Shown here piece by piece: positions 29,855 to 42,635 of a stretch of 45,592 bases of DNA. The notes under the pieces were generated by a model, which saw only the letters and a program-made list of their open reading frames with translations, had not been told where the DNA came from and made no database searches. Positions within the stretch are counted from its first letter, which is position 1. Every line of letters begins with the position of its first letter. This stretch comes from Spirochaetaceae bacterium (GTDB lineage: Bacteria; Spirochaetota; Spirochaetia; Treponematales; Treponemataceae), in contig JAGAAX010000034.1 of assembly GCA_017614995.1 (NCBI GenBank), positions 1-45,592 of the forward strand, in the 5' to 3' direction. A program made the position numbers and the translations under genes.

Positions 29855-29919
29855 ACCTATTGACAAAGTAGGTTATTCGGTTTATAAATACATATACAAA
29901 ACCTATTAATGTACTAGGT
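29855..29919 (+). promoter_or_regulatory. cysK promoter with two 19-bp operators
   Basis: Operator 1, ACCTATTGACAAAGTAGGT (29855-29873), contains the -35 box TTGACA (29860-29865). The -10 box TATAAA is at 29883-29888, spacer 17. Operator 2, ACCTATTAATGTACTAGGT (29901-29919), lies just after the start point. Both fit ACCTAnT-N5-AnTAGGT-like symmetry and recur before nifH (32236, 32276) and before the importer operon (40064). A repressor bound here would block the polymerase. The regulator itself is not in the window; a Rrf2-family (IscR/CymR-like) protein is a guess. Confidence 0.85.
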
Positions 29920-29938
29920 AATATTTTGGAGGACGTAT

Positions 29939-30877
29939 ATGAGTGATATTAAACAGAGTGCTTTGGACTTAATTGGAAAGACACCGCTTTTGCAGTTGAA
30001 CGGCTATTCAAAAAAAGCCGGAATTAAGAATGCAACAATTCTTGCAAAACTTGAATATTTGAATCCGGCAGGAAGTGTAAAAGACCGCATTGCGCTTGCA
30101 ATGATTGAAGATGCTGAAAAGAAAGGTCTTTTGAAGCCGGGCGCAACAATTATTGAGCCGACATCGGGCAACACAGGAATCGGTCTTGCATCGGTTGCAG
30201 CAGCAAAAGGCTACAAGGCTGTTCTTACACTGCCAGAGACGATGAGCGTTGAGCGCCGCAACCTGCTTAAGGCTTATGGCGCAGAGCTTGTTCTTACAGA
30301 AGGCGCAAAAGGCATGAAAGGCGCAATCGCAAAGGCAGAAGAGCTTCAGAAGTCGACACCGGGAAGCGTTATTCTCGGTCAGTTTGTAAACCCTGCAAAC
30401 CCTGCAATCCACAAAAAGACAACCGGCCCTGAAATTTGGGAACAGACAGACGGAAAAGTTGATATTTTTGTAGCCGGTGTAGGCACAGGCGGAACTTTGA
30501 CAGGTGTCGGCGAATATCTTAAATCAAAGAACCCGAACGTAAAGATTGTTGCTGTTGAACCTGCAACAAGCCCCGTTCTCTCAAAAGGCACAGCAGGTGC
30601 ACACAAAATCCAGGGAATCGGCGCAGGCTTTATCCCTGACGTGCTCAACACCAAAATTTATGACGAAATCATTCCAATTGAGAACGGCGACGCCTTTACA
30701 GAAGGCCGCACATTTGCAAGAAGCGAAGGAATTCTTGTAGGCATTTCAAGCGGCGCGGCTCTTAAAGCTGCCCGAATTCTTGCAGAACGCCCAGAAAACA
30801 AAGGCAAGGTAATTGTTGCCCTGCTCCCTGATTCAGGCGACCGCTACTTGAGTACACCGCTTTTCAGCGACAACTAA
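29939..30877 (+). CDS. cysK: Cysteine synthase (O-acetylserine sulfhydrylase)
   Basis: A 312-residue PLP enzyme that makes cysteine from O-acetylserine and sulfide. K48 in NPAGSVKDR is the PLP lysine; the substrate loop is TSGNTG at 75-80; [12 protein letters not shown] is the phosphate-binding loop, and GISSGAAL lies near the end. GGAGG is 6 bases before the start. It leads the nif-like cluster under the operator-controlled promoter at 29855, so its product would trap sulfide released by that system. A terminator-like hairpin at 30901 separates it from nifB. Confidence 0.95.
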
Positions 30878-30900
30878 TTTAAGCATTTTTTGAAAGCAAC

Positions 30901-30946
30901 GGGCTGCCAAGCTTAAGCGTCAAACTTATCTGGCAGCCCTTGTTTT
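30901..30946 (+). terminator. Intrinsic terminator/attenuator between cysK and nifB
   Basis: GGGCTGCCA (30901-30909) pairs with TGGCAGCCC (30931-30939), loop 21 nt, followed by TTGTTTTT. nifB has no other clear promoter, so partial read-through would give less NifB than CysK. Confidence 0.72.
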
Positions 30947-30959
30947 TATTGGAGTTTTT

Positions 30960-31832
30960 ATGGCGAGAAGCTATTCAGAATTGCAGCAGAATCACCCTTG
31001 CTTTGGAAGACATGGTGCGACATCTGGAAGAATTCACCTTCCTGTATGCCCGGGCTGCAACATTGCGTGCCGTTTTTGCGAGCGTTCCATAAATGATACA
31101 GAAAACCGCCCCGGCGTTACTGGCCGCGTCTTAAAGCCTGAAGAAGCCGCTGATATTGTCGGCAAGGCACTTGCAATAAGCCCAGAAATCAAGGTTGCAG
31201 GCATTGCAGGACCGGGCGACACGCTTGCAAGTGACAATGCTTTTAAGACTTTCGCGCTTGTCGGCGAAAAGTTTCCTGAGCTTATAAAATGTATGAGCAC
31301 AAACGGGCTTATGCTTAGCGAGCGCGCAGACGAAGTAATCGCCGCCGGAATTGACAGCCTTACTGTTACGGTAAATGCCGTTGACCCAAAAATTGAGGCG
31401 CAGCTTAACGACTATATAATTTGGCATGGCAAAAAAATTGAAGGCATTGAAGGCGCAAAAATTCTGATTGAGAACCAGCTTGCCGGAATCAAAAAAATCG
31501 CGGAGGCAGGCATCACCATAAAAGTGAACACAGTGCTTGTTCCGCGCATAAACGGCGCGCATATCGCAAAAATTGCAGAAACCGTCGCCGCAGTCGGTGC
31601 AACACGCTACAACATTATTCCGCTTATTCCTACAGCAAAACTCAAAGACGAGCCTGTGCCCACATGCGATGAAATACACGCCGCGCGCAATGCTGCGTCT
31701 AAATACATCGAACTGTTTCTGCACTGCAACCGGTGCCGCGCAGATGCCGTCGGCATTCCGGGCAAGACTGAATTTGCAAGTTCAGTGTATGCAGATTTTG
31801 GCGCTGTAAAGGAGAATTTCTCACATGGCTGA
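30960..31832 (+). CDS. nifB: NifB-type radical SAM protein (nitrogenase cofactor precursor synthesis)
   Basis: A 290-residue NifB without a fused NifX domain. The start reads HPCFGRHG with C14, then the SAM-cluster motif C33-x3-C37-x2-C40 (CNIACRFC), then ENRPGV. The C-terminus has HCNRCRADAVG with C256 and C259. In NifB the first and last cysteines bind the K-cluster precursors that are fused to the 8Fe core with a central carbide. All these ligands are present, so a FeMo-co-like cofactor core is probably made. It follows cysK and overlaps the next gene by 8 bases. No NifEN or NifDK is nearby. Confidence 0.92.
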   Translation: MARSYSELQQNHPCFGRHGATSGRIHLPVCPGCNIACRFCERSINDTENRPGVTGRVLKPEEAADIVGKALAISPEIKVAGIAGPGDTLASDNAFKTFALVGEKFPELIKCMSTNGLMLSERADEVIAAGIDSLTVTVNAVDPKIEAQLNDYIIWHGKKIEGIEGAKILIENQLAGIKKIAEAGITIKVNTVLVPRINGAHIAKIAETVAAVGATRYNIIPLIPTAKLKDEPVPTCDEIHAARNAASKYIELFLHCNRCRADAVGIPGKTEFASSVYADFGAVKENFSHG

Positions 31833-32187
31833 AAACACTTTGTACCGCATAGCTCTTGCTTCTAGTGACGGCGAGAATGTAAATGTACATTTCGGAAAAG
31901 CCGACACATTTTTGGTCTATTCACTTAGCGACGAAAGCGATGCCGCTTTTTTTGAGAAAAGAAGCGTTGTACCTGTCTGCAAAGGCGGAAGCCATGATGA
32001 AGAGCGCATGAAAGAGAATGCAGCGCTGTTTGAAGACTGCCGCTACGTCATTGCAGAGAGAATTGGGCGCGCGGCAGGCGCACATCTTGCAGCAAACGGC
32101 GTTACTTCAATGGAACTGCCGGGCAGCATTGCCGATGCAGTCTTAAAAGTTCAGAAATACAACCAGATTCAAGGTCTGTTTGCATAA
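31825..32187 (+). CDS. NifX/NafY-type dinitrogenase cofactor-binding domain protein
   Basis: A 120-residue single-domain protein of the dinitrogenase iron-molybdenum cofactor family. The N-terminus ALASSDGENVNVHFGKADTF is typical, with a His in VHFGKA; CRYVIAERIGRAAGAHLAAN follows. Such proteins carry cofactor precursors between NifB and the later steps. It overlaps the end of nifB by 8 bases and has GGAG at 31811. It may hand NifB product to an enzyme encoded elsewhere. Confidence 0.88.
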   Translation: MAENTLYRIALASSDGENVNVHFGKADTFLVYSLSDESDAAFFEKRSVVPVCKGGSHDEERMKENAALFEDCRYVIAERIGRAAGAHLAANGVTSMELPGSIADAVLKVQKYNQIQGLFA

Positions 32188-32235
32188 AGCCTGCACTTAA
32201 AATTGAACATCAAAAAAAATTAAAAATATTTAAAA

Positions 32236-32294
32236 ACCTATTGACTAAGTAGGTATAATCAAATATATTCATATTACCTAGTATGTTAATAGGT
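32236..32294 (+). promoter_or_regulatory. nifH promoter with two 19-bp operators
   Basis: Operator 1, ACCTATTGACTAAGTAGGT (32236-32254), includes -35 box TTGACT (32241-32246); -10 box TATATT is at 32264-32269, spacer 17. Operator 2, ACCTAGTATGTTAATAGGT (32276-32294), has 7 of 8 positions matching between its arms. The layout copies that before cysK, with the two operators 40 bp apart rather than 46. So nifH has its own controlled promoter. Confidence 0.85.
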
Positions 32295-32301
32295 TTTATA
32301 G

Positions 32302-33574
<1,273 letters not shown>

Positions 33575-33606
33575 CTGAAATACGCGCCGGCTTCAGGGAG
33601 TTCAAA

Positions 33607-34758
33607 ATGCCTTTATCAATAGAAACAAACTGCCTTCACCTTGAGAACGAAAAAGATGGAGACTCTGTCTGTTCGCACTACAGTTCAATCAGCTTTCCGA
33701 TTTATCAGACTGCAACTTATGCGCACCCGGGCGTAGGCAGAAGCACAGGCTTTGACTATTCGCGTCTGCAAAACCCGACACGCGAGCAGCTTGAAATGCT
33801 TATTTGCGAGCTTGAGCATGGAACAGATGCAGTTGCGCTTTCTACCGGCATGGCGGCAATCGCCCTTTTAATGGAACTCTTTAAGCCCGGCGACCATTTG
33901 ATTGTAGATTCAGATTTATACGGCGGAACAATAAGGCTTTTTGACAACGTTTCTTTAAAAAATGGAATCAAGTTTACACGCGCAAATTGTGCGGAAGACA
34001 ATCTTGAAGCCCTTATAACACCAGAAACACGCGCAATCTACATTGAAACGCCCACAAACCCTATGATGAATGTCACAGATATTGCGGAAGTCTCTAAAAT
34101 TGCAAAGCGGCATAAGCTTCTTTTGATTGTAGACAACACGTTTATGTCGCCTTATTTTCAGACACCGCTTGATTTGGGCGCAGATGTCGTAGTTCACAGC
34201 GGAACAAAATTTCTTGCCGGGCATAACGACACGCTCGCCGGTTTTATCGTAACCAACCGCCCCGAGCTTCAGGAAAAACTAAGATTTTTAATAAAAACTA
34301 CAGGCTCTGGGCTTGCCCCTTTCGACAGTTGGCTCGTTCTCCGCGGCATAAAAACGCTCGCAATCCGCATGGAAAAAGCGCAGAGCAACGCCGCCAAAAT
34401 CGCACGCTGGCTCAAAACCCAAAAATCGGTTGTGCGCGTAATCTACCCTGGGCTAGAAGAACACCCCGGCTACAAGATTATGAAAAAGCAGGCACGCGGT
34501 TTCGGTTCAATGGTTACTTTTCAGCTTGACACTACAGAAAAAGCACTTTCTGTACTTGAGCGCGTAAGGCTCATAAAATACGCCGAAAGTCTTGGCGGAG
34601 TTGAGACGCTGATTACCTACCCCACAACCCAGACGCACGCCGATGTGCCCGAAGAACTCCGCCTCAAAAACGGAATTACGCCGCAAACGCTGCGTCTTTC
34701 AGTCGGTATAGAAAACGCTGACGATTTGATTGCAGACTTGGAACAGGTGCTGAACTGA
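33607..34758 (+). CDS. Cys/Met-metabolism PLP-dependent enzyme (cystathionine gamma-synthase/lyase, methionine gamma-lyase-like)
   Basis: A 383-residue fold-type I PLP enzyme. K201 in HSGTKFLAGHND binds PLP; YGGTIRLF and IETPTNPMM are family blocks, and SLGGVETLITYPTTQTHA lies near the end. The family includes cystathionine gamma-synthase, O-acetylhomoserine sulfhydrylase and methionine gamma-lyase; the sequence alone does not tell which. It follows the second nifX-like gene by 32 bp and is probably in the nifH operon. With cysK it could use sulfide or a thiol released by the nitrogenase-like system. Confidence 0.88.
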   Translation: MPLSIETNCLHLENEKDGDSVCSHYSSISFPIYQTATYAHPGVGRSTGFDYSRLQNPTREQLEMLICELEHGTDAVALSTGMAAIALLMELFKPGDHLIVDSDLYGGTIRLFDNVSLKNGIKFTRANCAEDNLEALITPETRAIYIETPTNPMMNVTDIAEVSKIAKRHKLLLIVDNTFMSPYFQTPLDLGADVVVHSGTKFLAGHNDTLAGFIVTNRPELQEKLRFLIKTTGSGLAPFDSWLVLRGIKTLAIRMEKAQSNAAKIARWLKTQKSVVRVIYPGLEEHPGYKIMKKQARGFGSMVTFQLDTTEKALSVLERVRLIKYAESLGGVETLITYPTTQTHADVPEELRLKNGITPQTLRLSVGIENADDLIADLEQVLN

Positions 34759-34766
34759 TAAGTGCT

Positions 34767-34872
34767 GAACAGATCCCGAAACAAGTTCGGGATGACAGCA
34801 ACATTTCGGGATGACAGCAACATTTCGGGATGACAGTAACACTTCGGAATGATAGCAACACTTCGGGATGAC
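34767..34872. repeat. Cluster of short TTCGGGATGACAG-type repeats
   Basis: Starts with CCCGAAACAAGTTCGGG (34769-34785), then repeats TTCGGGATGACAGxAACA about four more times, some with a changed base. It lies between two convergent genes. The core is shared with 13758 and 36962. Confidence 0.8.
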
Positions 34873-34879
34873 AGTAATC

Positions 34880-35548
34880 TTATAAGTTTATTTCATTATC
34901 ACACAGTTTAAGAGCGTCTTTGTCGTGGCTGGCAAGTATTACAGTCTTGCCCTCATCGGCAAGGGCGCGGAATATTTTTATAATTGCCTCTGTGTTTTCT
35001 GAATCCACTGAATCGGTGGGCTCGTCTGCGAGGATAATTTCTGGATTATTGATTAGTGCACGCGCTATAAGAACGCGGTGATTTTCTCCACCGGAGAGAG
35101 TTGCAGGATTTGAAGCTGCAAGATGTGCAATTCCAAGCTTTTCTAAAAGGCTTAGTGCGCGCTCTGTAATTTCCGCTGTCTGCTGCTTTTTGAGCTTCTC
35201 TCCGCCGATAAACGCCGGCAGCCGCACATTGTCAATTACAGAAAGGTTATCAAGAAAGCTCTGCTCCTGCGAGATAAAACCGATGTTTTTGTTTCTAAAC
35301 GCGCAAAGTTTTGAATCATCAAGAGAAAAAATGTCTGTTTCTATGCCGGCCGCTGTTATAAGGATTCTTCCGGCTGCCGGTTTCTGCAAACCTGCCAGAA
35401 TCGAAAGTAGTGTAGATTTACCCGCGCCGGATTTTCCTTTTAAGCCTACAAAACTGCCGTCCGGGATTTCTGTATTCAGATTTTCAAAAACTGTTACAGT
35501 TCCGCGCGGAGTTACAAATGTCTTTTTCAAGTTTTCAATTTTAATCAT
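34880..35548 (-). CDS. ABC transporter ATPase (LolD/MacB type)
   Basis: A 222-residue ATPase: Walker A GKSGAGKST, Q loop SQEQSF, signature LSGGENHR, Walker B IILADEPTDSVD, and the switch His in LASHDKDA. Its start overlaps the FtsX-like permease end by 4 bases. This type of ATPase drives LolCDE/MacB-like permeases that move lipoproteins or peptides rather than importing solutes. Last gene of the importer operon, ending 121 bp from the convergent PLP enzyme. Confidence 0.9.
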   Translation of the reverse strand: MIKIENLKKTFVTPRGTVTVFENLNTEIPDGSFVGLKGKSGAGKSTLLSILAGLQKPAAGRILITAAGIETDIFSLDDSKLCAFRNKNIGFISQEQSFLDNLSVIDNVRLPAFIGGEKLKKQQTAEITERALSLLEKLGIAHLAASNPATLSGGENHRVLIARALINNPEIILADEPTDSVDSENTEAIIKIFRALADEGKTVILASHDKDALKLCDNEINL

Positions 35549-36756
35549 TTTGCTGTACTCCTAAAGCCGTCGTAGACTGAATATTTTGAGATTTTATACG
35601 CGCTGTACACTGCCGAAACAAGACACGCCGCGACAAGCACAGCAAGCGTAACCGCCGCAAAAACAGCGGTCTGTAGCGCGTCTGAAGAAGCATAAGGCAT
35701 GTTGATTTTCTGTGAAATAAGATAATTAAATGGAAGAAAAATCAACGCGCTTACAAAAATGCCCGAAACTGCACCGCCTGTGCCAAGAATTGCCGCTTCT
35801 GCAAACACGATTGAACAAAGCTTTTTTGCATCTGCGCCAAGCACGCGCAAAATCGAAAATTCGCGCAGCCTTTCATTTATAGAAAGCGAGAACACAATCG
35901 AAAGCGTAAGCACTGTAATCAAAATTACGAGCACACTTCCTGCATAAAGGAAAACTAAAAATGACGAGATGCTTTCCATTAAGCCCGACACAAATCTGCC
36001 GCTTTGAATAACCTGCACACCTGAAACCGCGCCTTTTATGCGAGCCGCAGTGCTGTCAGGTTTTGCGCCGTCAGCAAGCTTTACAAAGATTACGCTTGCC
36101 TTAGTTTTTGTGTCGCCGTCAGAGATAAAGCCAAAGCCTTTTTGCTTTGCATCGTCAAAGATTTTCTGCAAAGTCGCAATGTCGGTGTAAATCACGTTGT
36201 CCATGCCTGTGCCGCTTTTTGCAAGGCGGGCTGAAACTTTGTGTGTATTCGCAAAAAAAGTGACTTTGTTTTTTTCAGTATTGATGTTGCTGCCGGCAAG
36301 TATCAATTCGTCTGCCCCGCCGGTTTCAGCAATCTTTTTTCTTGACCAGCTTTTGACAATAAAATCAGTTGCCGGGTCAAAGCCGATTATCTGAATTGGA
36401 AAATCGCAGCAGCTTTCGCTCAGGCTTGTAAGGTAAAACTGCCCTGTCACTTTGGCAACACCCTGAATGTTCCGCACAGCCGCTTCAATCGATTTATCCA
36501 AATAAAAATAGTTCGGCTCGCCGGAAAGCAGGACGCTCTCCATTTGCGCCTCATAGCCTTCCGGCACAATCATAAGGTCTGCGCCGATTCTGTTTTGCAG
36601 ACCGGCGAGACCGCCTTTTATGCTCGACGTGAGAAGAATGCTTGCGAACAGAACCGCACCCGACAAGGCTACCAAAATTATGAGTGCGGCTGTACGCCAG
36701 GGCTTTTTTCTTATGTTATTGAGCGCAAGGCTTCTGATTGTTATTTCTTTTTCCAT
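35545..36756 (-). CDS. FtsX-like permease (MacB/LolC type ABC component)
   Basis: A 403-residue permease. A first membrane helix at about 20-42 (AALIILVALSGAVLFASILL), a large extracytoplasmic domain (about 45-260), then three helices at about 270-295, 320-345 and 365-390. This is the MacB/FtsX plan. The periplasmic part has a QVIQSGRFVSGLMES segment. It overlaps the DUF4418-like gene by 16 bases and the ATPase by 4, so the three are tightly coupled. Substrate unknown. Confidence 0.88.
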   Translation of the reverse strand: MEKEITIRSLALNNIRKKPWRTAALIILVALSGAVLFASILLTSSIKGGLAGLQNRIGADLMIVPEGYEAQMESVLLSGEPNYFYLDKSIEAAVRNIQGVAKVTGQFYLTSLSESCCDFPIQIIGFDPATDFIVKSWSRKKIAETGGADELILAGSNINTEKNKVTFFANTHKVSARLAKSGTGMDNVIYTDIATLQKIFDDAKQKGFGFISDGDTKTKASVIFVKLADGAKPDSTAARIKGAVSGVQVIQSGRFVSGLMESISSFLVFLYAGSVLVILITVLTLSIVFSLSINERLREFSILRVLGADAKKLCSIVFAEAAILGTGGAVSGIFVSALIFLPFNYLISQKINMPYASSDALQTAVFAAVTLAVLVAACLVSAVYSAYKISKYSVYDGFRSTAK

Positions 36757-36944
36757 AAGAGAATTGTCTGTATTGCTGAAACAACGAAAATAACAATGCC
36801 GAAAACCAAAACTGCCGGTGCAGTAACTGCGTGGCAGTGCATTTTTGGCATATCGCAGACTTTAGCAAAAGTGTACGGTGCGATGCCGACCAGAATTCCG
36901 AGAATTGCTGTAATTGATGATAAGATAATGTTGATGTTTTTCAT
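36741..36944 (-). CDS. Small DUF4418-like membrane protein
   Basis: A 67-residue protein with two membrane helices (about 5-25 and 45-62) and, between them, VCDMPKMHCHAVTAPAVL. The pattern Cys, then Met-x-Cys-His before the second helix, is that of DUF4418 proteins found with ABC transporters of this kind. The Cys/His/Met set could bind a metal such as copper, but that is a guess. The start at 36944 has AAGGAG 8 bases upstream; the frame is open to 36989. It overlaps the permease gene. Confidence 0.7.
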   Translation of the reverse strand: MKNINIILSSITAILGILVGIAPYTFAKVCDMPKMHCHAVTAPAVLVFGIVIFVVSAIQTILLWKKK

Positions 36945-36958
36945 ATATACTCCTTGTA

Positions 36959-37012
36959 AGATGCCGAAACAAGTTCGGCATGATGTCATTCTGAACTTGT
37001 TTCAGAATCTAT
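36959..37012. repeat. Palindromic repeat between genes
   Basis: GCCGAAACAAGTTCGGCATG and then TCATTCTGAACTTGTTTCAG, two arms of the same repeat family as 13758 (core GAAACAAGTTC). It lies between the DUF4418-like gene and the binding-protein gene of the operon. Confidence 0.8.
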
Positions 37013-37013
37013 A

Positions 37014-38099
37014 TTAACCGCGTGAGCCGTTAATTTCCTTATAAGTTTTTGTTGCGCTGTCGTAGATATAGCCGTCAGGCACACCAAACAGCTCGATGTA
37101 ACCCTGCTCGATAAACTTTTCGATGTCGGTTGAATCTTTTAAGATTCCGGCTTCCTGAAGCTGACGCGAAGCAGCCGCAAAAGTTTTTTTGCCGAGCGAG
37201 CGGCTTGGCTGATAGTTGAGCTCTTCAAGCAGAGCAGCGTTAAAATCAAGGTCGCCTGCTACAAGGTCGTTCTCAATCTGAAGCTGTGCAACCGCACGTG
37301 GTTCTGCCTCAACATAAGCCGCCGCTTTCTGCAAAGCGCGTGTAACGGCTGCCGCTCCTTCCGGATTTTCGCGCAGAAGCTTATGTGTTACAAACTGCTG
37401 GCAGCAGTATTCGTTTACAAATTTGTCGTCAATTCCAGTATCAAGAATTTTTCTGAAACCGTAGGCAAGCTCACCTTTTGTGGCAATCGGGTCATGTGCA
37501 CCGATTACATCAACCGCGCCGTTGTTCAGCGCAATCGCAAGGTCGCTGGAAGCATAGGCAAGAAACTCAACCTCATTGTTATCAGCCGTAACGCCGATAC
37601 CTTCGTCCATAAGCTTGCGTTTAAGGTTCATAACTGCGCTGTCTGCAAGCCCCGGAACACCAATCTTTTTTCCGCGCAAATCTGCCGCAGAATAGATGTC
37701 GCTGTCGGCACGTACATAATACTTTGTACAGCCGATGTGGATTCCAGACGTAAACGAAATCGGAAGCCCATTTTCCATTGCCTGAAGCTGTGTTGCATAC
37801 AAACCGTAGCCTGCATCAACTTTGCCTGAAGCAATCATCTCACCCAAAGTTGCGCCGCCCTCAACAACCTGAACGTATTCAGCTTTCTGCCCGATTTTGG
37901 CAAGCTCTTCGTCAAACAGGCCGAGCTTCATCGCAACATGAACCGGGGCATGGCACAGGCTTCCTGTAGAAAAGTTGATGCGCACAACCTTCTGAGCCTG
38001 ATTTCCGCCAGCCGCAGTATCTTTTTTGCTGCATGCGGTAAATGAAATAGCAGCAGCCACAATTGCGGCAGCTCCCAAAATGAGTAATGATTTTCTCAT
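37014..38099 (-). CDS. SsuA/TauA/NrtA-like substrate-binding lipoprotein
   Basis: A 361-residue binding protein. The signal MRKSLLILGAAAIVAAAISF ends in the lipobox FTAC, then a Lys/Ala-rich linker. The mature part fits the sulfonate/nitrate/taurine family (NMT1/THI5-like): FSTGSLCHAPVHVAMKLGLF, GKKIGVPGLADSAVM and CCQQFVTHKLL. The ligand is not visible; sulfonates or other organosulfur compounds are favoured because cysK and a Cys/Met enzyme are in the same region. The start at 38099 has GGAGG upstream. Confidence 0.88.
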   Translation of the reverse strand: MRKSLLILGAAAIVAAAISFTACSKKDTAAGGNQAQKVVRINFSTGSLCHAPVHVAMKLGLFDEELAKIGQKAEYVQVVEGGATLGEMIASGKVDAGYGLYATQLQAMENGLPISFTSGIHIGCTKYYVRADSDIYSAADLRGKKIGVPGLADSAVMNLKRKLMDEGIGVTADNNEVEFLAYASSDLAIALNNGAVDVIGAHDPIATKGELAYGFRKILDTGIDDKFVNEYCCQQFVTHKLLRENPEGAAAVTRALQKAAAYVEAEPRAVAQLQIENDLVAGDLDFNAALLEELNYQPSRSLGKKTFAAASRQLQEAGILKDSTDIEKFIEQGYIELFGVPDGYIYDSATKTYKEINGSRG

Positions 38100-38182
38100 A
38101 TATACCTCCATAAATTAATTAATCTTCAAAATAGGTTTTCAATGCTTTCCGCATGGATGCGGAGAACAAGCAAACTATATTT

Positions 38183-38962
38183 TCATATCGCGTATTCCAC
38201 TTCCTGAACCTTACCGGCGTAATCGAGAATCTCAAGAATCCGGGTACGGTACTTTAAGAACACATCCTGACCACGTGCGCGCGGATGGCTTATCTCAATC
38301 GGAATGATTTTCTCAACTTTTGCAGGACGCGGCGACATAACAACGACGTAATCGCTCAGGTATACAGCCTCGTCTACATCATGAGTTACCATCACCATTG
38401 TGGTGTTGTGCTCTTTCCATAGGCGAAGAATCTCGTCCTGCATGGTCATTCTCGTAAATGCGTCAAGCGCACCGAGCGGTTCGTCAAGCAGCAGAATCTT
38501 AGGATGCCCCACAAGTGCGCGCGCAAGACTTGCCCTCTGGTTCATTCCGCCAGAAAGCTGATGTGGAAAAGACTTTTCAAAGCCCTCAAGCCCCACAAGC
38601 TTGATAAACTTGTCAACATCGTCTTTCCGGTTTTTGTAGATATGGCGTGCGCGCAGACCAAAAGCCACATTGTCGCGGATTGTAAGCCATGGAAAGAGGT
38701 TCGCCTGCTGAAACGCGAATCCGCGGTCACTGCCCGGCTTTGTGATTTTTGCACCGTCAACAAGCACTTCACCGCCAGACGGCGTTTCAAGCCCTGCAAT
38801 ACAGCGGAGCAGCGTTGTCTTTCCGCAGCCAGAAGGTCCGATAAGCGACACAAAGCTTCCAGCCGGAATCGTAAAGTCTACGCCGTTGAGCGCGGTAACT
38901 TCTTCAGCCTCACCCTCGTTAAAGATTTTGCTTATATTCGATAATTTAATTTCACCACTCAT
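38183..38962 (-). CDS. SsuB/TauB-like ABC transporter ATPase
   Basis: A 259-residue ATPase with Walker A GPSGCGKTT, signature LSGGMNQR, Walker B ILLLDEPLGALD and the switch His in VTHDVDEA. It belongs to the nitrate/sulfonate/taurine importer group and works with the permease at 39089 and the lipoprotein at 37014. The intergenic gap to the permease is 126 bp and holds a palindromic repeat. Confidence 0.93.
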   Translation of the reverse strand: MSGEIKLSNISKIFNEGEAEEVTALNGVDFTIPAGSFVSLIGPSGCGKTTLLRCIAGLETPSGGEVLVDGAKITKPGSDRGFAFQQANLFPWLTIRDNVAFGLRARHIYKNRKDDVDKFIKLVGLEGFEKSFPHQLSGGMNQRASLARALVGHPKILLLDEPLGALDAFTRMTMQDEILRLWKEHNTTMVMVTHDVDEAVYLSDYVVVMSPRPAKVEKIIPIEISHPRARGQDVFLKYRTRILEILDYAGKVQEVEYAI

Positions 38963-38996
38963 TTTAGAACTCCCTGTATTGCCGAAATTACTGGTA

Positions 38997-39061
38997 TGTC
39001 ATTGTCGGGCTAGACCCGACAATCTTTCTAAAGATTCCCGCGTCAAGCGCGGGAATGACAT
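38997..39061. repeat. Paired palindromes between permease and ATPase genes
   Basis: TGTCATTGTCGGGCTAGACC continues as a hairpin (GTCGGG/CCCGAC), and ATTCCCGCGTCAAGCGCGGG is a second hairpin ending in AATGACA. The layout, two hairpins bounded by TGTCATT and AATGACA, is like the other repeats in the window. Confidence 0.75.
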
Positions 39062-39088
39062 TTCTTATCATTCATTATGGCTGTTCAT

Positions 39089-40048
39089 TTACCATTTTAT
39101 GAGTCCCTTTTGCCAACCTAATACTCTCTTTCTCACCTTAAACAGCGCTGTAATAATCACCGTACAGAAAAGCGCAATCAGAATTAGACCGGCATAAACA
39201 CCGGCGTACATCATCATTGCTTTCTGATAGCTTATGTACCAGCCTATTCCGTACTTTGCACCGAACATTTCAGCCGTCATAAGCGCAATAAATGCCGCAC
39301 AGATTCCGTTGAACACACCCTGAAAAATATTGGGCAGTGCCGCAGGAACCGCAATCTTGAAAACCTGAAAGAAAGTGCCAGCTCCGAGCGTTTTTCCCAC
39401 CTCAAAATAGACCTTGCTTGTATTCTGAATACCCGAACTTGTCATAAGCTGAACCGGGAACCACACCGCAAGCGCAATAATGAACACACTTGCGCCGAAC
39501 GGTGTCGGAAATGTTGTAAGCACAAGCGGAATCCATGCAGTAGCCGGAATCGGACCAATCAGTTTTATGTACGGATTAATCCAATAGTAGACTTTCTTTG
39601 AAAAGCCGAGACATACGCCGGTTGCAAAGCCGGTGGTTACGCCCCAGAACACACCCAGAAGCAGCAATCTGAACGAGTACCAGACACATTTGCCCAGAAG
39701 CGCAGTCTGCTCAATAAAAATTGCAAGAATGTTGTTGTAGCTCGGAAAAAAGATAACCGGCAGCAGTGCAAATTTTGCAGTTGCAAGATTTATAGCAATT
39801 ACAAGACCTGCCGCACCAAGCAAAAACGGGCCTTTTTCGGTCAAGCCTTCCCGGATTTTTTTAATAAACAACGACAGAACAAAAAACACCAGCGCAATAC
39901 CAAGCAGAATAAGCAGCAGTCCTTCATAATAATGATGCTTTGATGCCGGATGCAACGAGCTGTCTGGCAGCGCAACCTGCACTAAAAATGTAAGAAGCAC
40001 CCCGAGTACGGGAAACAGCCGTTTTATAACACTTTTAAGATTCAACAT
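39089..40048 (-). CDS. SsuC/TauC-like ABC transporter permease
   Basis: A 319-residue permease with about seven helices and the binding-protein-dependent permease signature (EVGKTLGAGTFFQVFKIAVP). The frame is open to 40075 but that start lies inside the operator; AGGAG at 40056-40052 on the minus strand fits the ATG at 40048. First gene of the importer operon, followed by the ATPase and binding lipoprotein. The promoter region carries the 19-bp operator at 40064. Confidence 0.9.
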   Translation of the reverse strand: MLNLKSVIKRLFPVLGVLLTFLVQVALPDSSLHPASKHHYYEGLLLILLGIALVFFVLSLFIKKIREGLTEKGPFLLGAAGLVIAINLATAKFALLPVIFFPSYNNILAIFIEQTALLGKCVWYSFRLLLLGVFWGVTTGFATGVCLGFSKKVYYWINPYIKLIGPIPATAWIPLVLTTFPTPFGASVFIIALAVWFPVQLMTSSGIQNTSKVYFEVGKTLGAGTFFQVFKIAVPAALPNIFQGVFNGICAAFIALMTAEMFGAKYGIGWYISYQKAMMMYAGVYAGLILIALFCTVIITALFKVRKRVLGWQKGLIKW

Positions 40049-40063
40049 TTGCATCTCCTGAAT

Positions 40064-40082
40064 ACCTACTAACATAGTATGT
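40064..40082 (-). promoter_or_regulatory. Operator before the importer operon
   Basis: ACCTACTAACATAGTATGT has 8-bp arms (ACCTACTA and TAGTATGT) with one mismatch around ACA. It is the same motif as before cysK and nifH. It lies 15 bp before the permease start; the core promoter is not clear (TATAAC and weak -35). Confidence 0.75.
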
Positions 40083-40229: not shown

Positions 40230-40308
40230 CTGGAATTTAAAGTAATAGTCAAAAATTCAAAATTTTAGTATACTAATCTGTAGAAATTCGTTTTTTTAGG
40301 TGGGAAAA

Positions 40309-41436
40309 ATGGCACGAACTGCAAATTATTCAGTCTTAAAAAAGTATTTGCCTGCAGAAGATTTTAATGAAAGTTATGCCTTAATAAGCCACTACATTCA
40401 ATTGCAAGGTACAGAAAAAGCCAAGAAATACGAAAAAGAAATTCTTGCTAAAAATATTAATTTAAGCATAATTCCACAAAAAAAAGATTTTAATAAGTCA
40501 GTAGAAATTCCATATTCAAACAAAGGCGAAAAATTCAGTTTTATTGACCTCTTTGCTGGAATTGGTGGGTTCCGCATGGCTTTGCAAAATTGTGGCGGAG
40601 AATGTGTTTTTTCAAGTGAATGGGATGAATCTGCAAAACAAACATATTTTGCAAACTATGGAGAAGTACCATTCGGCGATATTACAAAGATAAATGTAGA
40701 TGATATTCCGGATTTCGATGTTTTGGCAGGAGGCTTCCCTTGCCAACCGTTCAGTTCAATTGGAAAAAGAGAAGGCTTTCAACATAAAACTCAGGGAACG
40801 CTCTTTTTTTATATTGCAGAAATAATTAAAGCAAAACAACCAAAAGCATTTATTTTGGAAAATGTAACAGGGTTACTTACTCACGATGAAGGAAAAACTT
40901 ACGAAACAATTATGGAAGTCCTTGAAAAAGAGTTGGAGTATAAAGTTACAACAAAAGTTCTAAACAGTGCAGATTTTGGCGTTCCGCAAGAAAGAAAAAG
41001 ATTGTATTTTGTTGGTTTTAGAAAAGACATTGATTCTTCAAATTTTAAAATGCCGGAAGGTAATTCAAATCATGTCGGTATTGGGCAGTTTGTAGAAAAA
41101 GATGCAAAAGGACCTTCTATTTCAAAACATTTGCAGCAAAGTTATATCTTTAAAAAAGATGATGGTCATCCAGAAATTATAGATTCAAATTCTAACTTTC
41201 CTGTAAAGACGCTTTGCGCGTCTTATCACAAAATTCAGCGTATAACGGGAACATTTGTCCGTGGTGGAGAAACTGGTTTACGTCTATTAACTGAAAATGA
41301 ATGTAAAGCCATTATGGGTTACCCTAAAGAATTTAAAATTCCTGTTTCACGAACTCAAATGTATCATCAGTTCGGCAACTCTGTTGCCGTTCCTGTTGTA
41401 GAAAAACTTGCAGAACGAATTGTAAGTAATTTATAA
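40309..41436 (+). CDS. DNA (cytosine-5-)-methyltransferase of a type II restriction-modification pair
   Basis: A 375-residue C5 methyltransferase. Motif I FIDLFAGIGGF, motif IV GGFPCQPFSSIG with the catalytic Cys at about residue 145, motif VI ILENVTGL, motif VIII PQERKRLYFVGF and motif X YHQFGNSVAVPV. It resembles M.HpaII-like enzymes in motif I-IV spacing, consistent with CCGG specificity, but the target recognition domain must decide. The start at 40309 has AGGTGG upstream. The cognate endonuclease follows after 14 bp in the same cassette. Confidence 0.93.
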   Translation: MARTANYSVLKKYLPAEDFNESYALISHYIQLQGTEKAKKYEKEILAKNINLSIIPQKKDFNKSVEIPYSNKGEKFSFIDLFAGIGGFRMALQNCGGECVFSSEWDESAKQTYFANYGEVPFGDITKINVDDIPDFDVLAGGFPCQPFSSIGKREGFQHKTQGTLFFYIAEIIKAKQPKAFILENVTGLLTHDEGKTYETIMEVLEKELEYKVTTKVLNSADFGVPQERKRLYFVGFRKDIDSSNFKMPEGNSNHVGIGQFVEKDAKGPSISKHLQQSYIFKKDDGHPEIIDSNSNFPVKTLCASYHKIQRITGTFVRGGETGLRLLTENECKAIMGYPKEFKIPVSRTQMYHQFGNSVAVPVVEKLAERIVSNL

Positions 41437-41450
41437 AAGCGGAGATTTTT

Positions 41451-42635
41451 ATGCCACAGTTTTCAAATAGCGATAAGCAAGAGCATGGTAAAAATGCAAA
41501 AGATGCACTTGAACAGATTTTGCTTGAATGTAAAAAGTTTTCTTACATCAAAGAAATAGAAACAGATTATCGTTGTGGCTATGCAGAATATGATAACAAA
41601 CAGTTTTATTGCAACTTTGTAATTACATTTCAAGATGATACAAAATGGATTGTAAATATTACAACTTCATTCCGTTCTGACCGATTAAAAGGTAATCAAT
41701 GGGACAGCTACAATATAAAAGAAATTGATTCATCAATTTCAAAATCAGTTTTAGTTTATCCCGACGATTTATCAGAAGATGATAAAGAAGATTTTATTTC
41801 TTATAAATTGAAAATTTTGAATAAAATTCATTTTTCAGCAATTGATGATATCGTAGGACAAAACGAACTTTTCGAACTTATTGAAAACTACGCAAATAAA
41901 AATCTTTCAACTGGCGTAAAAAAAGACATTCAGGGCAACAATTTTGAATCTTATATATCAAATGTTTTAAGTAACGAGAAAAATCTTGAAAAATGGAAAA
42001 CTGCAAATCCTAAATTGGTTGGTATGCATTTTGACTTTTTCGAGAAAATATTGGCTTGCTTCAAACTTGATAAAAAATCAGTCGTTAGTATAAATGCAAC
42101 TTCTGATAAATCAATTATTGGAAATTTAAAAACTTCAGGTTCTCCAAAAACAGATATTATTGTAACTGTAAAAATTCGAAATAATGAAGAAAAGTATTTT
42201 ACAATCAGTTGCAAAAAGACTAACGCTAAATCTGTTAGTGTTCATCAATATACGGCAGACGCTTTCGCTGATGTATTAGATTCAGAAAATAAAACTTTAA
42301 GAAATTTACTTCAGAAATTCCAAGAAAACGGCAATTTAAGAGACTTTGGAACAGATAATGCTGAACTGTTGAAAAAAGAGTTAAATCCGTATTTGGAAAA
42401 ACTTGTAAAATGGGTAATTGGTGGTTATGGCGGTAAAATTCAGAACCAACTTCAAATTGCAGATTACATTTTAATTTCCGATGAAAATGATATTTTCATT
42501 CATACTTTGGACGAATATACAAAAATGCTTTTGAAACCAGAAAATGAAAGTCATTTTGGAACACCTTTTCAGTGGACTTTTGCCTCTGGTAGAAAAGGTA
42601 AAGATATTCAATTGAAGTGTAAAATCATAAAATAG
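41451..42635 (+). CDS. MspI/HpaII-like type II restriction endonuclease
   Basis: A 394-residue protein. The C-terminal half resembles MspI as I recall it: GSPKTDIIV with D235, then 18 residues later TISCKKT with S253 and K255, and near the end FQWTFASGRKGKDIQLK. In MspI the catalytic residues are D99, N117 and K119, with the same spacing, so S253 would replace the Asn. The N-terminal part is family-specific. With the C5 methyltransferase it forms a restriction-modification pair, predicted target CCGG. The two genes occupy a single integron cassette. Confidence 0.75.
   Translation: MPQFSNSDKQEHGKNAKDALEQILLECKKFSYIKEIETDYRCGYAEYDNKQFYCNFVITFQDDTKWIVNITTSFRSDRLKGNQWDSYNIKEIDSSISKSVLVYPDDLSEDDKEDFISYKLKILNKIHFSAIDDIVGQNELFELIENYANKNLSTGVKKDIQGNNFESYISNVLSNEKNLEKWKTANPKLVGMHFDFFEKILACFKLDKKSVVSINATSDKSIIGNLKTSGSPKTDIIVTVKIRNNEEKYFTISCKKTNAKSVSVHQYTADAFADVLDSENKTLRNLLQKFQENGNLRDFGTDNAELLKKELNPYLEKLVKWVIGGYGGKIQNQLQIADYILISDENDIFIHTLDEYTKMLLKPENESHFGTPFQWTFASGRKGKDIQLKCKIIK

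Follow-up and report, generated by a model that had tools for sequence, protein, structure and literature searches.

What does a nitrogenase-type Fe protein do beside the cofactor maturase NifB when genes for the catalytic subunits D and K (DK) are missing from the neighborhood? The question is raised by positions 29855 to 40082 of a contig from a Spirochaetaceae bacterium (assembly GCA_017614995.1, contig JAGAAX010000034.1), where nifB, two nifX-like genes and nifH are grouped with cysK and a gene for a pyridoxal phosphate (PLP) enzyme. The window that we analyzed is this complete contig (G000:C10, 45,592 bases); its genome comprises 3.05 Mb in 64 contigs, with an estimated completeness of 95.13%.

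With a probability of roughly 0.8, we regard the locus as the shared maturation and reductase hub of a sulfur-assimilatory nitrogenase homolog resembling methylthio-alkane reductase (Mar). Judged from sequence, the operator at cysK, nifH and an importer operon is shared with D/K genes in relatives and with methionine genes in the same genome. The "nitrogen fixation" genes of this gut Treponema would most likely serve the scavenging of organic sulfur, and the relatives indicate that the missing half is probably a reductase that cuts C-S bonds. The first-pass annotation had proposed a nitrogenase-like C-S reductase wired to sulfur assimilation, with its catalytic subunit encoded elsewhere in the genome. 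The former part is borne out by the Mar-type D/K genes beside the same operator in relatives and by the operator at this genome's own cysteine and methionine genes; the latter is not, the subunit being absent from the assembly.

Genomes compared

The family sample comprised 145 genomes, of which 40, this genome counted, carry a near-complete NifB radical-SAM core; the tables of NifB cores and of PF00148 (NifD/K/E/N family) matches were matched up by eye. The genus sample contained eight genomes: this one, four others with the core, all with strong PF00148 genes, and three without the core, two of which lacked PF00148 matches and one of which had weak matches only. Of the 39 other core-bearing genomes, eight, all of one other genus, combine NifB above the curated cut-off with strong PF00148 matches. 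Among named genomes, those related by NifB similarity belong mainly to Treponema, with many of rumen origin, followed by rumen Lachnospiraceae; they include T. bryantii, of which named strains carry the hub, Treponema sp. JC4 and C6A8, and metagenome-assembled Treponema.

Hub genes and their conservation

The gene set described earlier, with cysK, nifB, two nifX genes, nifH and a Cys/Met PLP gene facing an SsuABC-type importer, was recovered in full and every member matched its family. The hub genes and the operator sites, which were located by pattern search, are as follows.

29855..29873, no strand: 19-bp operator ACCTATTGACAAAGTAGGT, upstream of cysK
29901..29919, no strand: second 19-bp operator upstream of cysK
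29939..30877, + strand: cysK, cysteine synthase A (TIGR01139, 454 bits, cut-off 351)
30960..31832, + strand: nifB, radical SAM enzyme without a fused NifX domain (TIGR01290, 250 bits, cut-off 344)
31825..32187, + strand: nifX-like gene 1, overlapping the end of nifB (PF02579)
32236..32254, no strand: operator upstream of nifH
32276..32294, no strand: second operator upstream of nifH
32311..33159, + strand: nifH-type Fe protein with Cys97 and Cys132 (TIGR01287, 460 bits, cut-off 394)
about 33143..33574, + strand: nifX-like gene 2, with a Cys/Gly-rich insert, after nifH (PF02579; start inferred from the reading frame)
33607..34758, + strand: Cys_Met_Meta_PP enzyme, cystathionine gamma-lyase/synthase family (family match)
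40064..40082, no strand: operator before the importer operon, one arm with one mismatch

The predicted cluster ligands are intact, as had been claimed (NifH Cys97 and Cys132; NifB Cys33, Cys37, Cys40, Cys256 and Cys259), and NifB also has Cys14 of the HPC motif and Cys111. NifB scores 283 bits against the solved NifB 7jma, with which it shares the motifs HPC, CxxxCxxC, KCMSTNG and CxxC. By sequence comparison, enzymes that build the [Fe8S9C] precursor cluster carry these motifs, and a NifB-type maturase with such motifs is one feature of Mar systems that this genome has. Its score below the TIGR01290 cut-off is probably explained by the NifX part being a separate gene. CysK is 92.6-96.5% identical to its counterparts in three relatives. 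The PLP enzyme stays below the cut-off of each of the 25 NCBIfam models listed for it. The insert of the second NifX-like protein (33143-33574) is variable and Cys/Gly-rich, and is Cys-rich in two relatives as well; the protein is a possible metal-cluster carrier.

Compared with two same-genus copies, the window genes have ratios of nonsynonymous to synonymous change (dN/dS) of 0.02-0.03 for nifH and 0.11-0.14 for nifB; several of the comparisons are close to saturated for synonymous change, and one of the nifB values was not computable. The nifH/nifB hub is kept under constraint.

The operator and a probable sulfur regulon

In the window, cysK and nifH each have two copies of the palindrome ACCTANTNNNNNANTAGGT in front of them, and the importer has a single copy with one mismatch. 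The 19-bp operator of the first-pass annotation is real, its five window sites having their outer borders exactly at 29855 and 40082. In 724 kb of Treponema-side loci we counted 76 perfect palindrome sites, compared with none in 30 single-base shuffles and none in the reversed sequence. Allowing up to one mismatch raised the count to 145, compared with a shuffle mean of 2.1 and two in the reversed sequence. The operator occurs in excess of chance.

Genes were associated with the operator when a site lay within 300 bp in front of them. On the Treponema side this holds for 18 of 33 nifB, 23 of 30 nifH and 14 of 24 CysK-family genes, and for importer genes of the SsuA-like (6/15), SsuC-like permease (5/9) and SBP_bac_3 (5/6) types; it holds for one of five Rrf2 genes and one of 21 gamma-lyase-family genes. 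The same search in Bacillota and Geomonas loci gave no association for any class (nifB 0/15, nifH 0/14, CysK 0/15, SsuA-like 0/3, SsuC-like 0/2, SBP_bac_3 0/3, Rrf2 0/6, gamma-lyase family 0/9, D/K 0/40). Because some loci are near-duplicates, these gene counts are not independent.

Across the window's genome, a slightly stricter pattern with up to one mismatch was found at eight places, five of them in the window. Of the other three, two lie in front of an O-acetylhomoserine sulfhydrylase gene (MetY, TIGR01326, 655 bits), and a MetQ-type lipoprotein gene has the third upstream. An Rrf2 gene near that sulfhydrylase has an upstream site with two mismatches to this pattern, or one to the palindrome ACCTANTNNNNNANTAGGT. 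Allowing two mismatches genome-wide proved unspecific (45 strand hits in the reversed control compared with 22), and we therefore rely only on places with none or one and on the locus-wide controls.

The Rrf2 protein may be what binds the operator, a suggestion drawn from gene position. In the relative G041, the PLP gene divergent to K belongs to the PatB C-S lyase family (451 bits, cut-off 340), and a CymR-like Rrf2 gene comes after it; this Rrf2 and that of the window's genome both score below the CymR and IscR model cut-offs. The sulfite/nitrite reductase family PF01077 was found in none of the eight genus genomes, those with weaker PF00148 pairs included, and in 11 of 14 controls; its absence would favor a thiol or sulfide product over sulfite.

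D/K genes of relatives are Mar-like

PF00148 genes occur, at E of 4e-72 or better, in all 39 other family genomes with the NifB core, and Mar-like D/K genes are present in all four other core-bearing genomes of the genus. Three relatives, G048, G041 and G062, share the core locus, with NifH about 97% identical, and have D/K on a different contig; in G062 only K is visible before the contig ends. The D protein of G048 scores 284 bits to Rhodospirillum rubrum MarD compared with at most 107 to any nitrogenase alpha chain, and its K protein 360 bits to MarK compared with 85 to NifK. Within the genus, strong PF00148 matches turned out to be MarD- or MarK-like by score.

We aligned 51 D rows of 400-600 residues scoring above 90 bits to MarD, after dropping duplicates and partial rows. 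The four Cys are kept in 50 of them, and the pair Arg428-His429, a possible hallmark of methylthio-alkane reductases according to passages of PMC12552129, in 33. Three complete same-genus rows (L061, L063 and L068), which fall within a 20-row clade (support 100/100), retain Cys66, Cys91, Cys158, Trp195, Phe199, Cys270, His375 and Arg428-His429 of MarD. Another 14 rows are without Loop I and the Arg-His pair; they share the Cys ligands and an invariant His, aligned with a His in one NifD of the family, which may be a cofactor ligand. This subclass comprises L070:160-1635, L076:9810-11291, L106:12358-13800 and 11 further rows, and at least the pair in genome G089 stands behind an amino-acid-type importer.

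The D/K genes also occur in other arrangements. In G013, nifB, nifH, D, K, a CysK homolog and an importer lie in one stretch. Loci L105-L116, L118, L120, L125 and L126 (Bacillota, mostly rumen Lachnospiraceae) have nifB 53-70% identical and D/K genes in 15 of 16, none with the 19-bp operator; the enzymes were likely passed from one phylum to another, with a change in regulation. A plasmid of Candidatus Chlorohelix allophototropha (L178) carries a nifB-nifX-nifH-D-K row with the MarD-type Arg-His pair and a divergent ABC importer beside it. Family loci L168, L169, L170 and L176 hold nitrogenase-like H/D/K sets of their own, whose Fe protein is a different one; L170 is an example of the family's weaker PF00148 pairs, which may be Isr-like.

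Several observations weigh against the Mar-like hub proposed here. The assembly without DK is 95% complete, and three relatives that do have D/K genes are only 80-85% complete; of the regions flanking DK in G048 and G041, the window's genome has only parts, which are rearranged. The operator stands within 300 bp in front of only 4 of 33 Treponema-side D/K genes, namely the K genes of G048, G041, G062 and G089, which are divergent to a PLP gene of one cluster. The clade with the same-genus D rows joins the MarD clade at moderate support (90/79). In the three same-genus rows the active-site region has Ile for His194 and Asn for Cys73 of MarD, so their substrate may differ from that of Mar. The Fe protein is not of MarH type: window NifH scores 468 bits to Clostridium pasteurianum NifH compared with 290 to R. 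rubrum MarH. In Tyzzerella, however, a D protein with 705 bits to MarD adjoins an Fe protein with 485 bits to NifH compared with 288 to MarH; therefore the NifH type does not decide function. For these comparisons we used bit scores and not the deep order of the Fe-protein tree, which has long branches and few well-supported forks. The first-pass annotation had held that a NifH grouping with true NifH, together with a canonical nif set elsewhere and expression controlled by nitrogen, would refute its interpretation; the NifH is indeed nearer true NifH, and a canonical nifHDKEN set was not found in the genome.

Where is the D/K component of this genome?

The absence of NifD/K-family genes from the window, claimed earlier, extends to the rest of the 95%-complete assembly. 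PF00148 had no match in this genome, with 4 of 14 control genomes positive, so that none of the NifD/K/E/N family was found, no separate NifE or NifN model having been run; MarDK in the same genome, a feature of Mar systems, was likewise not found. A profile built from 12 D subunits of relatives gave nothing at E up to 10, in a search that had no positive control. The D/K genes with the operator upstream that had been expected in the same genome were found in relatives only.

When this genome was searched with the whole DK contig of G048, the only matches were 58 bp within a flanking gene (C7:44309-44366) and weak ones to cysK. The C7 match lies at an ArsR-like gene, as read from sequence, with the contig end 422 bp on; the place shows neither a clean empty site nor a DK module. 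The ABC genes that follow the DK region of G041 match contig C62 starting at base 169, a hint that a contig ends where expected. Two genes that intervene in G041 map to the interiors of contigs C42 and C17; with synteny broken in this way, we dropped the C62 start as proof of an assembly gap. The DK locus of this genome is most likely unassembled or plasmid-borne, and less likely recently lost. Plasmid pTS2 carries the locus in T. saccharophilum, and loss from the draft assembly is therefore plausible here.

Alternative explanations

The alternative that survives best, which we consider unlikely, is that DK is truly lacking, NifB and the Fe protein either persisting after a recent loss or serving a partner outside the NifD/K family. 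It would account for the empty PF00148 and D-profile searches and for the rearranged flanks, and close orthologs of the module-A Rrf2 and CysK2 were not found in this genome either; the pairwise dN/dS values may be compatible with a very recent loss. Against it, assembly gaps alone could account for one genome in 40, T. saccharophilum carries the locus on a plasmid, contig C62 starts beside the genes that follow DK in G041, nifH and nifB are conserved, and the operator-linked genes at C37 and C41 include no candidate catalytic partner.

There is a slight chance that the locus belongs to an isethionate reductase (IsrBHDK)-type system, in which a sulfonate taken up by an SsuCAB importer is cleaved to sulfite. 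Rhodobacter capsulatus isrBHDK works with ssuCAB as a sulfur-assimilation system (passages of PMC11423573), and the importer in the window falls in the sulfonate/taurine/nitrate class; the DK genes of G041 have a sulfolactate-dehydrogenase-like gene (240 bits, cut-off 500) nearby, and the weaker PF00148 pairs carried by the genus members G041, G062 and G069 could be Isr-like. However, the same passages describe IsrB as barely NifB-like, and the window NifB is a true NifB relative; they give IsrD one of three P-cluster Cys and no cofactor Cys, whereas the same-genus D proteins keep all four. The sole family row fitting the described IsrD pattern, L168, has its own, different Fe protein, and the sulfite route is missing from all eight genus genomes through the absence of PF01077.

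An ordinary or decaying nitrogen fixation system with its structural genes elsewhere or lost is very improbable: the solved structures nearest to NifH and NifB are nitrogenase proteins, and the other family genus noted above has NifB above its cut-off with strong PF00148 matches, but this genome has no PF00148 gene, the strong matches of its genus are to MarD or MarK, the operator marks sulfur genes, and the low dN/dS speaks against long decay. A search for NifV gave no hit over the cut-off in the eight genus genomes, and none in the 14 controls.

Taking the Mar-like, sulfur-assimilatory hub as the best explanation, we propose the following sequence of events. Under sulfur shortage, an Rrf2-family repressor of CymR/IscR-like type would release the operator, and the SsuABC-type importer would take up an organosulfur compound. 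NifB would build the cluster, and the NifX proteins would carry it to a DK encoded at another locus, to which NifH would deliver electrons with ATP. DK would then cut a C-S bond to give a thiol or sulfide, and CysK, the PLP enzyme or O-acetylhomoserine sulfhydrylase would fix this product into cysteine or methionine.

One hub and several D/K pairs

In some relatives a single hub is accompanied by more than one D/K pair. Six PF00148 matches and just one Fe-protein match of at least 300 bits were counted in each of G089, G092, G099, G103 and G105. G089 has three DK pairs within 30 kb: one with a CysK homolog, one after a polar-amino-acid-type importer and one after an NMT1-type importer, the D protein of the last scoring 449 bits to MarD. 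A G089 pair other than the one whose K gene has the operator lies behind importer genes, the first of which has a perfect operator site (L070:9842). G041 has a second D/K pair (L064:3-2240) of the Loop-I-less subclass, 97.5% and 95.2% identical to a G089 pair, at the end of the contig that carries its core, near the importer and with a MatE-family gene between; at this position the window has a restriction-modification pair after the importer instead.

In T. saccharophilum JCM 32279, the plasmid pTS2, whose sequence is complete, has metY-cysK-nifB-nifX-nifH, two DK pairs and an importer in about 19 kb, with three NifX genes in all. Its operator-like sites have one or two mismatches, and the Arg-His pair is kept in both D proteins. 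This stretch (L177, pTS2 327097-352569, on the 382-kb plasmid of a cultured strain) contains an IS30 transposase gene, and a cas2 gene lies 5 kb on.

Together, these loci raise an idea to which we give even odds: in gut treponemes, and in rumen Lachnospiraceae without the operator, one NifB and one NifH may power up to three DK per cell, with two types of cofactor ligation (the Mar-type with Loop I and Arg-His, and the Loop-I-less type with the invariant His), different importers and organosulfur substrates, and one Rrf2-type sulfur regulon. If this is so, many rumen "nifH" genes would report sulfur scavenging and not nitrogen fixation.

The importer side and neighboring features

The importer operon faces the hub and continues on the same strand into a DUF4418 gene and then an FtsX/ABC pair.

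39089..40075, - strand: ABC permease, TauC/SsuC family (family match)
38183..38962, - strand: ABC ATPase, nitrate/taurine/sulfonate family (best model SaoA, under its cut-off)
37014..38111, - strand: substrate-binding protein, NMT1/SsuA family (under NCBIfam cut-offs)
36741..36989, - strand: DUF4418 protein (family match)
35545..36756, - strand: FtsX-like permease (family match)
34880..35548, - strand: ABC ATPase of a MacB/FtsX-type export pair (family match)
34771..34798, no strand: one of the many copies, spread over the genome, of a short dispersed repeat; outside the proposed mechanism

The true start of the permease is probably slightly downstream of the first ATG, because the operator overlaps that codon. 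Adjoining the importer, positions 40300-42635 encode a C5 cytosine methyltransferase and an MspI-type endonuclease, a type II restriction-modification pair.

Relation to known systems

The analysis gives a testable function to rumen nitrogenase-like genes that have been labelled nitrogen fixation by similarity alone. If the proposed function is true, one Fe protein and one cofactor maturase would serve several C-S reductases, a point relevant to how different chemistries came to use nitrogenase-type clusters. It would also add to the ways in which thiols and small hydrocarbons may arise in the rumen; the passages of PMC12552129 cited here name methane, ethylene and ethane as Mar products.

The open-licence PMC literature yielded no account of this system from rumen treponemes. 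The paper that comes closest, PMC13067680, concerns the termite spirochaete P. corrugata, whose group-IV nif homologs, in the passages used, likewise have nifB and nifH apart from nifDK; there nifDK forms an operon with cysteine synthase, and the authors suggest a role in sulfur metabolism. Those passages contain no operator, importers, ligand analysis or Mar assignment for P. corrugata.

Compared with the Mo-nitrogenase system NifHDKENB, NifB and NifH are closely related, and the genome analyzed here differs in having no NifD/K/E/N-family gene and an operator in common with sulfur genes. IsrBHDK of R. capsulatus is, in the passages of PMC11423573, likewise a sulfur-assimilatory nitrogenase homolog with an SsuCAB-type importer. 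It differs in a maturase with little likeness to NifB, in an IsrD without most of the cluster Cys and in a sulfite product that needs a sulfite reductase, a family not found in the eight genus genomes.

The closest known system is MarBHDK of R. rubrum (passages of PMC12552129; PDB 9fmg and 9d9u), which shares the NifB-type maturase and the sulfur-metabolism setting. The D/K proteins of relatives are closest to MarDK, with the P-cluster Cys, Cys270 and Arg428-His429 conserved. In contrast to Mar, D/K here lies at other loci than B and H, with several pairs in some relatives; the Fe protein scores as NifH; two NifX proteins and a 19-bp operator are present; residue 194 of the relatives' D differs; and the host is a gut spirochaete.

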